From positions 1,142,001 through 1,206,000 of the forward strand of contig NZ_CP015381.1 in assembly GCF_001854245.1 (NCBI RefSeq): 64,000 nucleotides of DNA, given 5' to 3'. The position numbers and the translations under genes were made by a program. Shown in pieces: positions 43,702 through 47,750 of this stretch (position 1 is the stretch's first letter; the number at the start of each line of letters is the position of its first letter). The notes beneath the pieces are model-generated. The model ran no database searches, was not told where the DNA came from, and worked only from the letters and a program-made list of their open reading frames with translations. This stretch comes from Desulfococcus multivorans (GTDB lineage: Bacteria > Desulfobacterota > Desulfobacteria > Desulfobacterales > Desulfococcaceae).

Positions 43702-44466
43702 ATGACACAGATAATATGCATCGCCAATCAAAAAGGCGGGGTCGGCAAAACCACCACCGCCGTCAATTTGTCGGCAGCCTTGGCTTTGTCGGAGAAACGG
43801 ACGCTTTTGATAGACTGCGATCCCCAGGCCAATGCCACCACGGGCCTGGGGATCGACAAAAATGATCTGACAAAAACCCTCTATCATGGTTTGATCGGCG
43901 AAGCGGATGCCGAGAGCCTCATCATTGGCTCCGAGATCGATAACCTGAGCCTCCTGCCGTCCCGTGTGGAGCTGATCGGCTTCGAAGTGGAGATGATGAA
44001 CGAGCGTGAGCGTGAACATTCCCTCAAAAAGCTCATCCGAAGCGTTGCCGACAGGTATGATTACATCATCATCGATTGCCCGCCTTCCCTCAGCCTCCTG
44101 ACCCTCAACGCCATGGCGGCGGCCGACACGCTTCTGATTCCGCTGCAGTGTGAGTTCTATGCCTTGGAGGGTCTGGGGCAGCTCCTGCAGACCAAGGAAT
44201 TGATAAACGCCGGCATCAATCCCGGCCTGTCTATATTAGGCATTCTGCTGACCATGCTCGACAAAAGGACCAATCTTTCCCACCAGGTCGCCGAGGAGGC
44301 GATGAAATATTTTAAAGGGAAAGAGCGCGTTTTCAATACCAGCATTCCCCGAAATGTACGGCTGGGGGAGGCGCCCAGCTTCGGGAAGCCCATTCTGCTA
44401 TACGACGCTGCTTCCATGGGTGCAAAAAGCTATCTTGCCTTGGCGAAAGAGATTATCGATGGTTGA
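43702..44466 (+). CDS. parA: Chromosome partitioning ATPase ParA/Soj
   Basis: A 254-residue ParA with deviant Walker A KGGVGKTTTAVNLSAAL, switch DCDPQANATTGLG and Walker B IIIDCPPSL. It forms a nucleoid-bound gradient that moves ParB-parS complexes. It overlaps parB by 8 bases. No glutaredoxin-like or gidA/gidB genes accompany it, and I saw no parS consensus in the window. Divergent from the M48 gene. Confidence 0.95.
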   Translation: MTQIICIANQKGGVGKTTTAVNLSAALALSEKRTLLIDCDPQANATTGLGIDKNDLTKTLYHGLIGEADAESLIIGSEIDNLSLLPSRVELIGFEVEMMNEREREHSLKKLIRSVADRYDYIIIDCPPSLSLLTLNAMAAADTLLIPLQCEFYALEGLGQLLQTKELINAGINPGLSILGILLTMLDKRTNLSHQVAEEAMKYFKGKERVFNTSIPRNVRLGEAPSFGKPILLYDAASMGAKSYLALAKEIIDG

Positions 44467-45385
44467 GAACGGCGACGTGCTGGGAGATAAATCAGAGGGA
44501 CAATCCGAAACATCTTCAAAGAAGCGTAAAAAGATGGCACTCGGCAAGGGTCTGGGGGCGCTGATTCCCAAAATGGAGGCCTCATCACCGCCCTCTGTTG
44601 ACGGGAAATATTTCAAATGTGACCTCCACCGGATTCTGCCCAACCGGTATCAACCTCGCCGACGGTTCTCCGAAGAGGACCTCAGGGAACTCTCTGCTTC
44701 TATCAAGGAACAGGGCATCATTCAACCGCTGGTGGTTCGCGAGAGCGGGGGCGGGTATGAACTGATTGCCGGTGAGCGACGATTTCGGGCTGCGAAAATG
44801 GCGGGCCTGGCCCAGGTACCGGTGGTGGTGAAAAGCCTGCCGTCGGAAGGGCTTCTGGAGATGTCCCTTGTGGAAAACATCCAGCGAGAGAATCTCAACC
44901 CCATTGAAGAATCGGACGCCTATCACCGCTTGATGACGGAATTCGGACTCAACCAGGAGCAGGTGGCCGTGCGCGTGGGAAAGAGCCGACCCGCCGTGGC
45001 CAATTTTCTGAGACTCCGGCAACTCCCCGAGGAGATTCGATCGGCGATGGTGGAGGGGCGGTTCAGCATGGGACATGCCAAAGCCGTTTTAGGTCTTGAT
45101 AACCCCGCCCATCAGCGGGATATATTTCAGTTGGTGATCACAAAAGACCTGTCGGTCCGGGAAACGGAAATCTTGGTCAATCGGCTGAAGGCGGTTCAAA
45201 AAGATCCGGAATCCCCTGAACCGAGTTCCGAGGATATCTATTTCGCCAGTGTCGCGGAGGACCTTTCCCGAAGACTGGGCACTAAGGTCCAGATCAAACG
45301 TCGCGGACGTCGAGGCAAAATGATGATCGAGTTCTATACGGATGAAGATCTTGATCGTCTTCTTGAAATTTTTGGTGGTGATTGA
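44459..45385 (+). CDS. parB: Chromosome partitioning protein ParB
   Basis: A 308-residue ParB/Spo0J. The N-terminal ALGKGLGALIPK, the CTP-binding GERRFRAAKMAGL and ENIQRENLNPIEE, and the helix-turn-helix VAVRVGKSRPAVANFLRLRQLP are standard. It loads on parS as a CTP-dependent clamp. The start overlaps parA, showing coupling. ispH-ubiA follows after only 3 bases. Confidence 0.95.
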   Translation: MVENGDVLGDKSEGQSETSSKKRKKMALGKGLGALIPKMEASSPPSVDGKYFKCDLHRILPNRYQPRRRFSEEDLRELSASIKEQGIIQPLVVRESGGGYELIAGERRFRAAKMAGLAQVPVVVKSLPSEGLLEMSLVENIQRENLNPIEESDAYHRLMTEFGLNQEQVAVRVGKSRPAVANFLRLRQLPEEIRSAMVEGRFSMGHAKAVLGLDNPAHQRDIFQLVITKDLSVRETEILVNRLKAVQKDPESPEPSSEDIYFASVAEDLSRRLGTKVQIKRRGRRGKMMIEFYTDEDLDRLLEIFGGD

Positions 45386-45388
45386 TCG

Positions 45389-47125
45389 ATGAAAATATCC
45401 GTCGCCAGAAACGCGGGGTTCTGTATGGGGGTTCAACGGGCCGTCGAGATGGCGCTGGATGCCTCCCATCGTTATCCCCCTCCGATCTATACCTACGGTC
45501 CTCTGATCCATAATCCTCAGGTTTTGAAGCTGCTGGATGAAAAGGGAATTTCGGTTATGAATGAAATTCCCGAAAAAGGATCCGGGACGGTCCTGATCCG
45601 GGCCCACGGTGTTCCACCCGATACCAAGACACGACTCGAATCCGCCGGCTATACGGTTATCGATGCCACCTGCCCGAGGGTCATCAAGGTCCAGGCCATC
45701 ATTCAGAAGCATGCCCGGGAAGGTTTCGCCTCGATTATCGTCGGAGATCGGGATCACCCCGAGGTTATCGGTCTTTTGGGATATGCCGGATCGAACGGCC
45801 ACGTGGTGGGAAGGCTCCACGACCTGGATACCCTGCCTGCGTTCGACAAGGCCATCATCGTGGCCCAGACCACTCAGAACGTTCATTTCTTCGAGGCCGT
45901 CAAAAAGTGGGCCCAAAAGCATCATCCCGGTTACAAGGTTTTTGAAACCATCTGCGGCTCGACGGAACAGCGCCAGAATGAAACCCAACGACTGGCCAAA
46001 GAGGTCGATGCGGTGATCGTTGTGGGTGGCCGGAATAGCGGGAACACTCAGCGGTTGGTCGAGATCGTAAAGGATGCGGGTAAGCCGGTGTGCCATATCG
46101 AAACCGAGAGCGATCTGGATATGGAACTCCTGCGGTCTGTAAAACACATCGGTATTACCGCCGGAGCCTCCACACCCAACTGGATCATCAAGCGGATTTA
46201 CCGGATTATCGAGGCCCTTCCCCTGGAAAATGAAAAAGTCTGGAAGCGTCGCCTCTTCATGGCTCAGCGTTTCGCCCTCGCTACCAACCTTTACATCGCC
46301 GTCGGCGCCGGTGCCCTTTGTTATGCCTGTTCGGTGCTTCAAAATGTCCGCACCCCATTTCCATATATCCTGATTTCAAGCCTTTATGTTCTTTCCATGC
46401 ACACCCTGAACAATCTCACGGGATTGAGGGAGGCGCGATACAACAATCCCGACCTGGCCGTCTTTTTCGAAACCCACAAGTCGAAGATGATTCTTCTGGC
46501 CCTTTCGTCGGGGGCTATCGGGCTTTTCGTGGCGGCCGGCATGGGGATATTGCCTTTCGTTCTCCTGCTGATCATGACGCTCATGGGTCTTTCTTACAAT
46601 CTTCAGATCGTCCCGGACAGCGTCCCCAACGCCAGATATCGGTCCATTCGTGACATTCCCGGCTCCAAAACCCTTCTTATCTCGCTTGCCTGGGGCATGG
46701 TGACGGCCCTGTTTCCCATTTTAGCCGCCACCGGAACCGTCGCATGGGCCACTATTTTTACATTTATCTGGTCCGTAGCCATGGTCTTCGTTCGAACGGC
46801 ATTTTTCGAGGTGCTGGACATGCAGGGCGACCAGATCGTCGGAAAGAATACCATACCGATTCTGCTGGGAAAGAAGCAGACCTTGGCTCTGCTGCGGTTG
46901 ATCCTGCTCTTTGTCTTCGTTATGTTGTTCCTGTCGGTGGTCTTCGGTGTTCTGCCGGGTTTGGCGCTGGCCCTGATTCTTTGCCCCATCTATCTGGCGG
47001 TGGTCATGGCGTTTCATCGGCGGGCGTACATTCGCCCGGGGATTCGGCTGGAGTTTTTAACCGAGTCACAATTCCTCCTGGCAGGCCTGATCACCCTGAT
47101 ATGGCGTATCGGATTTCGCGGCTGA
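45389..47125 (+). CDS. ispH: Fusion of IspH (HMBPP reductase) and a UbiA-family prenyltransferase
   Basis: A 578-residue two-part protein. Residues 1-~280 form a complete IspH with cluster cysteines Cys12, Cys95 and Cys189, plus HNPQV, AHGVPP and the TTQN motif; it reduces HMBPP to IPP and DMAPP. Residues ~288-578 are a multi-span UbiA-like membrane domain with the second Asp motif DMQGDQIVGKNTIP (Asp477, Asp481); the first is altered, NNLTGLREARYNNPD. The fusion places the isoprenoid precursor maker on a membrane prenyltransferase. The frame is continuous, without an internal start signal. Co-transcribed with parAB. Confidence 0.88.
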   Translation: MKISVARNAGFCMGVQRAVEMALDASHRYPPPIYTYGPLIHNPQVLKLLDEKGISVMNEIPEKGSGTVLIRAHGVPPDTKTRLESAGYTVIDATCPRVIKVQAIIQKHAREGFASIIVGDRDHPEVIGLLGYAGSNGHVVGRLHDLDTLPAFDKAIIVAQTTQNVHFFEAVKKWAQKHHPGYKVFETICGSTEQRQNETQRLAKEVDAVIVVGGRNSGNTQRLVEIVKDAGKPVCHIETESDLDMELLRSVKHIGITAGASTPNWIIKRIYRIIEALPLENEKVWKRRLFMAQRFALATNLYIAVGAGALCYACSVLQNVRTPFPYILISSLYVLSMHTLNNLTGLREARYNNPDLAVFFETHKSKMILLALSSGAIGLFVAAGMGILPFVLLLIMTLMGLSYNLQIVPDSVPNARYRSIRDIPGSKTLLISLAWGMVTALFPILAATGTVAWATIFTFIWSVAMVFVRTAFFEVLDMQGDQIVGKNTIPILLGKKQTLALLRLILLFVFVMLFLSVVFGVLPGLALALILCPIYLAVVMAFHRRAYIRPGIRLEFLTESQFLLAGLITLIWRIGFRG

Positions 47126-47135
47126 CGCTTCCCAA

Positions 47136-47750
47136 TTACAAGGGAGGCTCTTTACCTGCCGCCAGGCGACGGATATTTTCCCGGTGACGGATAAATATGC
47201 CTGCGGCAACCAAGACGCCGGCAGCGGTGAAAACGAGGGAGTGGTTGAATTTCCAGAGAACTGCGGGAATCAGCGCCGCAGCAGCCAGAGATCCTGCCGA
47301 TACCCGTCGTGTCAGGAAGATCAGCAGCAGAAAAATTGAAACGGCCGCAGCGACGGCCGCCGGCGAGACCGCCAGAAAGCATCCGCCTGCGGTGGCCACG
47401 CCTTTTCCACCGCCTTTGCCTTTCGTGTAAAGAGGGAAAAGATGCCCTGTAAAAGCGGCGAGAAGCACAACGGCGACATAGAGATCTTTGGAAATCCCGC
47501 CCGTTCCGACAAAGTATACGGCCAGAAATGTGGGCACCCAGCCTTTCAGGACATCGAGGACCAGTGTCAGTATACCCCAGGCTGTTCCGGCGGTTCGACG
47601 CACGTTGGTGGCGCCGATATTGCCGCTGCCCGACGTCCGGATATCCACGGCGGTGAACGTCCGGGTCAAGACGACTCCCCAGGGAACAGACCCCAGGGCA
47701 TAGGCGAAGAGCGGCAGTACCAGAAAACAGACGGTATCGGCGATGGACAT
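47136..47750 (-). CDS. plsY: Glycerol-3-phosphate acyltransferase PlsY
   Basis: A 204-residue inner-membrane protein with the three PlsY motifs: GSVPWGVVLTR, GSGNIGATNVRR, and the phosphate loop with KGKGGGKGVAT. It transfers acyl groups from acyl phosphate to glycerol 3-phosphate, the first step of phospholipid synthesis; its partner PlsX is not in the window. GAGG precedes ATG 47750. It converges on ispH-ubiA. Confidence 0.96.
   Translation of the reverse strand: MSIADTVCFLVLPLFAYALGSVPWGVVLTRTFTAVDIRTSGSGNIGATNVRRTAGTAWGILTLVLDVLKGWVPTFLAVYFVGTGGISKDLYVAVVLLAAFTGHLFPLYTKGKGGGKGVATAGGCFLAVSPAAVAAAVSIFLLLIFLTRRVSAGSLAAAALIPAVLWKFNHSLVFTAAGVLVAAGIFIRHRENIRRLAAGKEPPL

Follow-up and report, generated by a model that had tools for sequence, protein, structure and literature searches.

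Desulfococcus multivorans carries a gene in which IspH, the enzyme of the final step in bacterial isoprenoid synthesis, is followed in the same frame by a UbiA-like membrane domain lacking the first Mg-binding Asp, and it is of interest which chemistry such a UbiA site may perform beside a predicted maker of IPP and DMAPP. Earlier, the question could be put as one about a second prenyltransferase; it was sharpened by a survey of the motifs, by signs of one joining followed by losses, and by the CruF-like neighbours of the gene in other genomes. If the two halves exchange substrate, the protein would represent a membrane-bound isoprenoid branch point in a large group of anaerobes. The gene is located in a stretch of 64,000 nucleotides of the D. 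multivorans genome, hereafter the window, and its features are listed in Table 1.

Table 1. Features of the ispH-ubiA locus, in positions of the window
Feature	Position	Strand	Basis or remark
parA and parB	43702..45385	+	Neighbours in the window, not parts of the enzyme
ispH-ubiA fusion gene, 578 aa	45389..47125	+	Sole IspH match in the genome
IspH (HMBPP reductase) domain, residues 1-275	45389..46213	+	Pfam LYTB, TIGR00216, fold
Cluster cysteine Cys12	45422..45424	+	146/146 aligned fusions
Cluster cysteine Cys95	45671..45673	+	146/146 aligned fusions
Cluster cysteine Cys189	45953..45955	+	145/146 aligned fusions, one gap
Linker, residues 276-286	46214..46246	+	No in-frame start with a ribosome site inside
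UbiA-fold membrane domain, residues 287-578	46247..47122	+	Pfam UbiA, fold
Altered first Asp motif, N341-N-L-T-G345-L-R-E-A349	46409..46435	+	Aligns with AfUbiA N68, D72, D76
Tyr403, at the position of the TM4 tyrosine found in nearly all UbiA proteins (AfUbiA Y139)	46595..46597	+	142/146 fusions
Second Asp motif, E474-x-x-D477-x-x-x-D481	46808..46831	+	Alignment of fusions
plsY	47136..47750	-	Pfam G3P_acyltransf, E 6.4e-47; convergent gene next to the fusion, separate from the enzyme

The gene encodes a real single protein, IspH joined to a UbiA-like membrane domain. An earlier note, made from the letters of the window, had described one uninterrupted frame with a complete IspH, all three cluster cysteines, and a multi-span UbiA second half, and each of these points was borne out. 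The frame begins with ATG and runs through 578 codons. Pfam LYTB matches residues 3-274 with E 7.8e-91, and TIGR00216 gives the IspH domain 287.3 bits against a cut-off of 187.85. In the full-length fusion the best Pfam UbiA stretch covers residues 368-545 (41.9 bits, gathering cut-off 34.2), and the membrane half alone reaches 45.6 bits. In the AlphaFold2 model of the fusion (pLDDT 95.1, pTM 0.90, every stretch at least 50), residues 1-280 match E. coli IspH with Z 33.3 and rmsd 2.0 over 280 aligned residues, and residues 298-574 match A. pernix UbiA, 4od4, with Z 20.4 and rmsd 2.9 over 256. The Pfam score and the fold match rule out a membrane half that is not UbiA-like. Likewise, a scan for starts and Shine-Dalgarno sites in the window and in 146 fusions, which also answers the concern of the earlier note about an internal start, rules out two proteins made from one gene. 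In the window, Met291 is the first in-frame start within residues 270-349, and it is not preceded by a Shine-Dalgarno-like core; of the 146 fusions, 1 has a five-base core ahead of an in-frame start within residues 276-311.

The complete genome of D. multivorans (4.46 Mb) contains one IspH match only, which is the fusion. Since this is the sole IspH of a cell that presumably depends on an essential MEP pathway, the IspH half must be expected to work and would convert HMBPP to IPP and DMAPP.

Fusions of this kind have been published. Rao et al. 2015 (PMC4746011), in the available text, described 47 IspH-UbiA hybrids ("Rosetta stone" proteins), chiefly from Desulfobacterales, classed the UbiA half as PT_UbiA_5 with no function assigned there, and proposed a membrane prenyltransferase fed by IspH; expression of the full-length hybrid failed. 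The impression of the earlier note that the fusion had not been characterised is thus wrong as to its description and holds as to its biochemistry. Literature searches, mostly at the level of listings, found no later study of an IspH-UbiA fusion, and PMC12605070 only cites Rao et al. on the hybrids. According to the same available text, the published hybrids resemble the protein of the window in having UbiA C-terminal to IspH, in occurring in sulfate reducers (Desulfobacterales) and in the presence of a separate UbiA or MenA in the genome, but they are reported with two DXXXD sites, whereas the first motif in the window contains no DXXXD (G345, A349). Relatives from the order of the window contain D349-x-x-x-D353 (e.g., SDRYND in L011), one turn past the canonical place, and this may be the first DXXXD counted by Rao et al., whose D. 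toluolica hybrid is known here by description. The window therefore provides a further member of a published kind, with a first motif more degenerate than the available text of PMC4746011 describes. The status of the fusion as sole IspH, its spread in the phylum, the history of joining and loss, the family-wide change of the first motif and the CruF-like neighbours are new here. The earlier note suggested that the fusion would link the making of IPP/DMAPP to prenyl transfer, a plausible hypothesis that Rao et al. had also put forward.

A search across Desulfobacterota, as the earlier note had proposed, was made with the UbiA half of the window as query (395 genomes, E <= 1e-5). Matches were found in 151 of the 395 genomes, which is a lower bound because five divergent fusions occur among the genomes with no match. 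Loci were fetched from 142 of the 151 genomes (all but G175, G313, G236, G191, G113, G078, G163, G323 and G383), and IspH and UbiA lie in one frame in 140 of them; the two exceptions are G278, where the locus runs into a contig edge, and G022, where stops interrupt the gene. In the latter locus (L155), the two halves occupy different frames and stops lie between them or inside them, from an assembly error or a recent break. The alignment used throughout comprises 146 single-frame fusions, including the window and six named loci, L036-L041, from a short exact-pattern scan. It leaves out L006 (the locus of the window itself, counted as the window row), L151 (a free-standing UbiA), L153 (10 bases), L154 (contig edge), L155 (frame broken by stops) and the five divergent fusions.

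The fusion is typically the only IspH: in a sample of 80 of the 151 genomes, an IspH match was found in 78 and was the sole one in 77. A second match was seen in one of the 80 genomes, G135, which has the fusion and another IspH in a 373-aa frame (C153:20915-21745 and C172:15735-16559). Among 50 genomes sampled from the 244 with no UbiA-half match, 44 have IspH. Seven of these 44 frames exceed 500 aa; five are the divergent fusions (G028, G032, G065, G069, G073) and two (G015, G064) are not fusions. The UbiA profile is weakest on G065 (E 0.0054), but the proteins of G065 and G028 share 76% identity over 547 residues.

The UbiA half is not the only UbiA in these cells. All 50 fusion genomes checked have two or more UbiA matches, i.e., at least one besides the fusion, and D. 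multivorans has three other UbiA genes, so the fused domain is ruled out as the only quinone prenyltransferase of the genome. One of the three exceeds the cut-off set for UbiA-like polyprenyltransferases in general but stays below those of the MqnP models, and it adjoins a frame that reads as UbiX-like by its sequence.

The UbiA half rarely has free-standing relatives in the phylum; three are among the matches listed (G030:C6, G378:C1, G250:C31) when fragments at contig edges or in broken frames are set aside. One such relative, L151:3977-4840, comes from G030, a genome that also has a fusion; its first motif is N-R-L-T-D-V-E-E-D, with Arg after the first Asn and both later Asp present. A search against plasmids gave no match for the UbiA half and five weak haloarchaeal matches for L151.

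The history of the fusion was approached with 94 IspH domains (67 rows of the alignment of 146, the 5 divergent fusions and a sample of 22 lone IspHs) on a quick tree that is midpoint-rooted and leaves many forks open. The fused or lone state changes five times on this tree, compared with an average of 20 in shuffles and none of 500 shuffles as low; the starred branches alone force three changes. The group containing the window has 75 rows, 70 fused and 5 alone (SH-aLRT 89), and its closest relative to the window is uncultured Desulfococcus L036, with 82% identity in IspH. The lone IspHs inside this group, L215, L224, L238 and the pair L233/L240, would represent about four events in which the UbiA half was later lost. 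Outside the main fused group, on a long branch, stands the f42 pair (L217, L221), whose placement is unsure. The topology fits one old joining, vertical descent and some losses, where the assignment of gains and losses is our reading.

Such a history could also be produced by chance, if two isoprenoid enzymes were frozen on one chain and each kept its own job with no functional exchange. Mostly vertical descent from one joining fits any fixed accident, and the lone IspHs L215, L224, L233, L238 and L240 inside the fused group agree with it. The long retention, the constraint on both halves described below and the rarity of the free-standing form in the phylum are not in favour of this, and we consider an accident unlikely.

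The affinity of the UbiA half was examined by profiles. In an NCBIfam scan of 68 members (E <= 0.001), the PRK13591 prenyltransferase model matches 58, three geranylgeranylglycerol-phosphate transferase models match 52, 45 and 38, and MenA models match up to 13. The EboC model NF035940 matches none of the 68 UbiA halves at this threshold. The UbiA half of the window is far below the curated cut-offs of the listed models (e.g., 23.5 bits with the best GGGP/DGGGP transferase model, cut-off 296) and is a member of none of them. Among solved proteins, a single UbiA half found no match in the PDB with phmmer, and the profile at E <= 0.1 found only DGGGP synthase (6m31; E 9.7e-8, in two weak stretches; E 4.1e-7 with the full fusion profile) and AfUbiA (E 0.016). 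The earlier note had offered EboC or polyprenyl-glycerol phosphate transferases as the family to decide between; by profile, EboC drops out and the UbiA half appears to lean to the side of the archaeal GGGP/DGGGP transferases. These differ from the domain of the window, which has an altered first motif and is fused to IspH.

The fold is shared with AfUbiA (4tq3/4tq4) and ApUbiA (4od4/4od5) at Z 18-20, and the active site can be compared with them. According to the available text of Huang et al. 2014 (PMC4106721), Mg is bound in AfUbiA by N68, D72, D198 and D202, replacement of D72 by Ala abolished GPP binding, and a MenA mutant matching D72A lost function; the role of AfUbiA Y139 is taken from the same source. 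A profile of the fused UbiA domains matches AfUbiA weakly but collinearly through the first motif, so that N341 corresponds to N68, residue 345 to D72 and residue 349 to D76. Both statements of the earlier note about the motifs proved right: the first is altered and the second is intact. Only the Asn of NDxxDxxxD remains in the window, with Gly345 at the place of D72 and Ala349 at the place of D76, while the equivalents of N68 and D202 are present. The correspondence of Tyr403 to Y139 follows from sequence context, not from a structural overlay.

Across the 146 fusions, residue 341 is Asn in 133. Residue 342 is Arg in 70, His in 32, Asn in 22, another residue in 22 and Asp in none. AfUbiA itself has Ala at this place and so, like the fusions, no Asp after the first Asn; a change at 342 alone therefore need not harm. 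Residue 345 is Gly in 20 and Asp in 107 when counted by alignment column, or Asp in 105 when counted at a fixed distance from the Asn column. The second motif is kept, with Asp or Glu at 474 in 143 and D481 in 143; D477, in 91, is less constant. On the tree of the IspH part, the state of 345 changes 8 times and that of D481 twice.

The loss of the acid at 345 does not coincide with decay of the rest of the site. His338, Tyr403, Trp435, Arg469 and Asp481 are each kept in 142-143 of the 146 fusions, and in the 35 fusions with neither Asp nor Glu at 345, H338, N341, Y403 and W435 are present in 35/35 and D481 in 34/35. When the window is compared with L036, dN/dS (Nei-Gojobori) amounts to 0.093 in IspH and 0.100 in the UbiA half, and in ten chosen pairs the UbiA half ranges from 0.09 to 0.20. 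A dN/dS near 0.1, like that of the IspH half, shows that the UbiA half of the window is under strong constraint despite its non-canonical first metal site. Together with the kept residues, it rules out a pseudodomain in the lineage of the window.

It is quite possible, even if somewhat less probable than an active enzyme, that the UbiA half acts as an anchor keeping the sole IspH at the membrane or as a ligand sensor through which a prenyl diphosphate or quinone may tune IspH, with no prenyl transfer. The first motif has been eroded repeatedly, as seen from the 35 fusions and the 8 state changes mentioned above, every one of the 50 fusion genomes has another UbiA, and the UbiA half was lost entirely at about four places. 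The divergent fusions L216 and L218 (f38), L217 and L221 (f42) and L220 (f46) possess neither the Asn and Asp of the first motif nor the TM4 Tyr, and retain D481 in 5/5 and an acid at 474 in 3/5. These proteins and the losses indicate that the canonical site is not needed everywhere, and the divergent fusions moved our assessment slightly from an active enzyme towards an anchor. However, a bare anchor need not keep the five residues from His338 to Asp481 conserved in the main family, nor does it need a dN/dS near 0.1, and the PF04240, dxs and ispA neighbours described below point to isoprenoid chemistry.

The altered first motif also resembles that of UbiA-type terpene synthases (Fma-TC, EriG, Tps1A), for which the available text of PMC9835599 gives NXXX(G/A)XXXD as motif I and QDXXDXXXD as motif II. 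The window shares with them the NXXX(G/A) start and the three acids of motif II, but has no Asp at +8 and no Gln in motif II, which reads F-E-V-L-D-M-Q-G-D, i.e., an acid triad with Glu first and Phe where Gln is expected. In the order of the window, the fused UbiA could have left prenyl transfer and become an intramembrane cyclase of this type in place of a transferase. The pattern with Gly, N-x-x-x-G-x-x-x-D, is literally present in 14 of the 146 fusions, all within the starred group of 21 rows that includes the window. Moreover, the acid triad is complete in 22/22 fusions with Gly or Ala at 345, compared with 65/105 with Asp and 14/19 others. Asp at +8 follows the same division (14/22 with Gly or Ala at +4, 7/105 with Asp, 2/19 others), but the Fisher p of 1.5e-8 overstates the association, as the rows belong to one clade and are not independent. 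The pattern may go back to one chance substitution, since L016 and L022 of the same starred group have Asp at both +4 and +8; the window and L036, both with Ala at +8, lost the second Asp. No terpene genes were found among the scanned near neighbours of the fusion in the window. We regard a terpene synthase here as very unlikely, and the wider version, in which the domain turned into an enzyme resembling a terpene synthase, or into another one-metal enzyme, supplied by the IspH half of its own chain, as equally improbable. If true, it would mean a self-supplying membrane-bound maker of terpenoids in sulfate reducers, with a CruF-like hydratase as partner in other lineages.

In the window, three bases separate the parB stop from the ATG of the fusion. 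A ParB-like gene lies near the fusion in 15 of the 146 loci, where the flanks are often short, and the plsY cluster in 13. In other lineages the fusion lies among genes of the pathway: of the 146 loci, many of which have short flanks, 17 have a TlyA-like gene at -1, 10 have dxs at -2 and 13 have a NifU-like gene at +2. G030 shows the arrangement ispA-dxs-tlyA-PF04240-fusion, with TlyA assigned by sequence.

The CruF-like family PF04240 is absent from the genome of the window. Among the 24 genomes with both PF04240 and the fusion, the two lie within 8 kb of each other in 16 (codes f16, f59, f40 and f20) and farther apart in 8 (five f92 genomes and one each of f25, f16 and f59). No enrichment of PF04240 in fusion genomes was found (24/151 vs 33/244, Fisher p 0.56). 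Twelve control genomes with PF04240 include eight with a lone IspH, three with no IspH match and G073, where PF04240 lies beyond 8 kb of the divergent fusion. PF04240 is within 8 kb of the lone IspH (frame below 400 aa) in 0 of the eight genomes, by a by-eye comparison limited by draft contigs. Thus only the adjacency of PF04240 stands out and the overall co-occurrence does not. In Arthrobacter, the genes of the UbiA-family lycopene elongase Lye, CrtD and CruF cluster, as stated in the available text of PMC9122864, and the PF04240 genes near the fusion can be likened to this cluster, although the genome of the window has none. The likeness concerns gene neighbourhood in other genomes, not sequence; since lycopene elongase and CruF share a cluster there, C5 prenyl transfer is a candidate activity for the UbiA half.

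On balance, we tentatively prefer, with a confidence that falls short of even, a membrane-tethered sole HMBPP reductase whose UbiA half performs non-canonical chemistry on local isoprenoid diphosphates. The UbiA-fold domain would keep the only IspH of the cell on the cytoplasmic side of the membrane, and the IspH half would make IPP and DMAPP there. The UbiA half would remain an enzyme with a non-canonical first metal site and act on an isoprenoid diphosphate, with its own IspH half supplying the building blocks at the membrane. An active UbiA half is supported by the site residues kept in the 35 fusions with no acid at 345, by the acid triad present in all 22 fusions with Gly or Ala there, by its dN/dS equal to that of IspH, by the pathway neighbours (TlyA-like, dxs, NifU-like, ispA, PF04240) and by the rarity of free-standing relatives. 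It is weakened by Gly at the place of the Mg ligand and Ala at the place of D76 in the window, by at least one further UbiA in each of the 50 fusion genomes checked, which leaves no known reaction lacking an enzyme, and by the absence of PF04240 from the genome of the window and its lack of enrichment in fusion genomes. We thus place an active enzyme first, an anchor or sensor second as its main rival, an accident third and a terpene synthase last.

Two more arrangements of PF04240 were observed. In G048 (L171:1233-10485), carotenoid-type genes, among them PF04240 and those for a squalene/phytoene synthase, a glycosyltransferase and a CrtI-like amine oxidase, form a stretch that stops one frame short of the fusion. 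In G158, a genome with no UbiA-half match from family f42, to which two of the genomes with divergent fusions also belong, six PF04240 matches occur on one strand within about 6 kb (C317:1466-7568).
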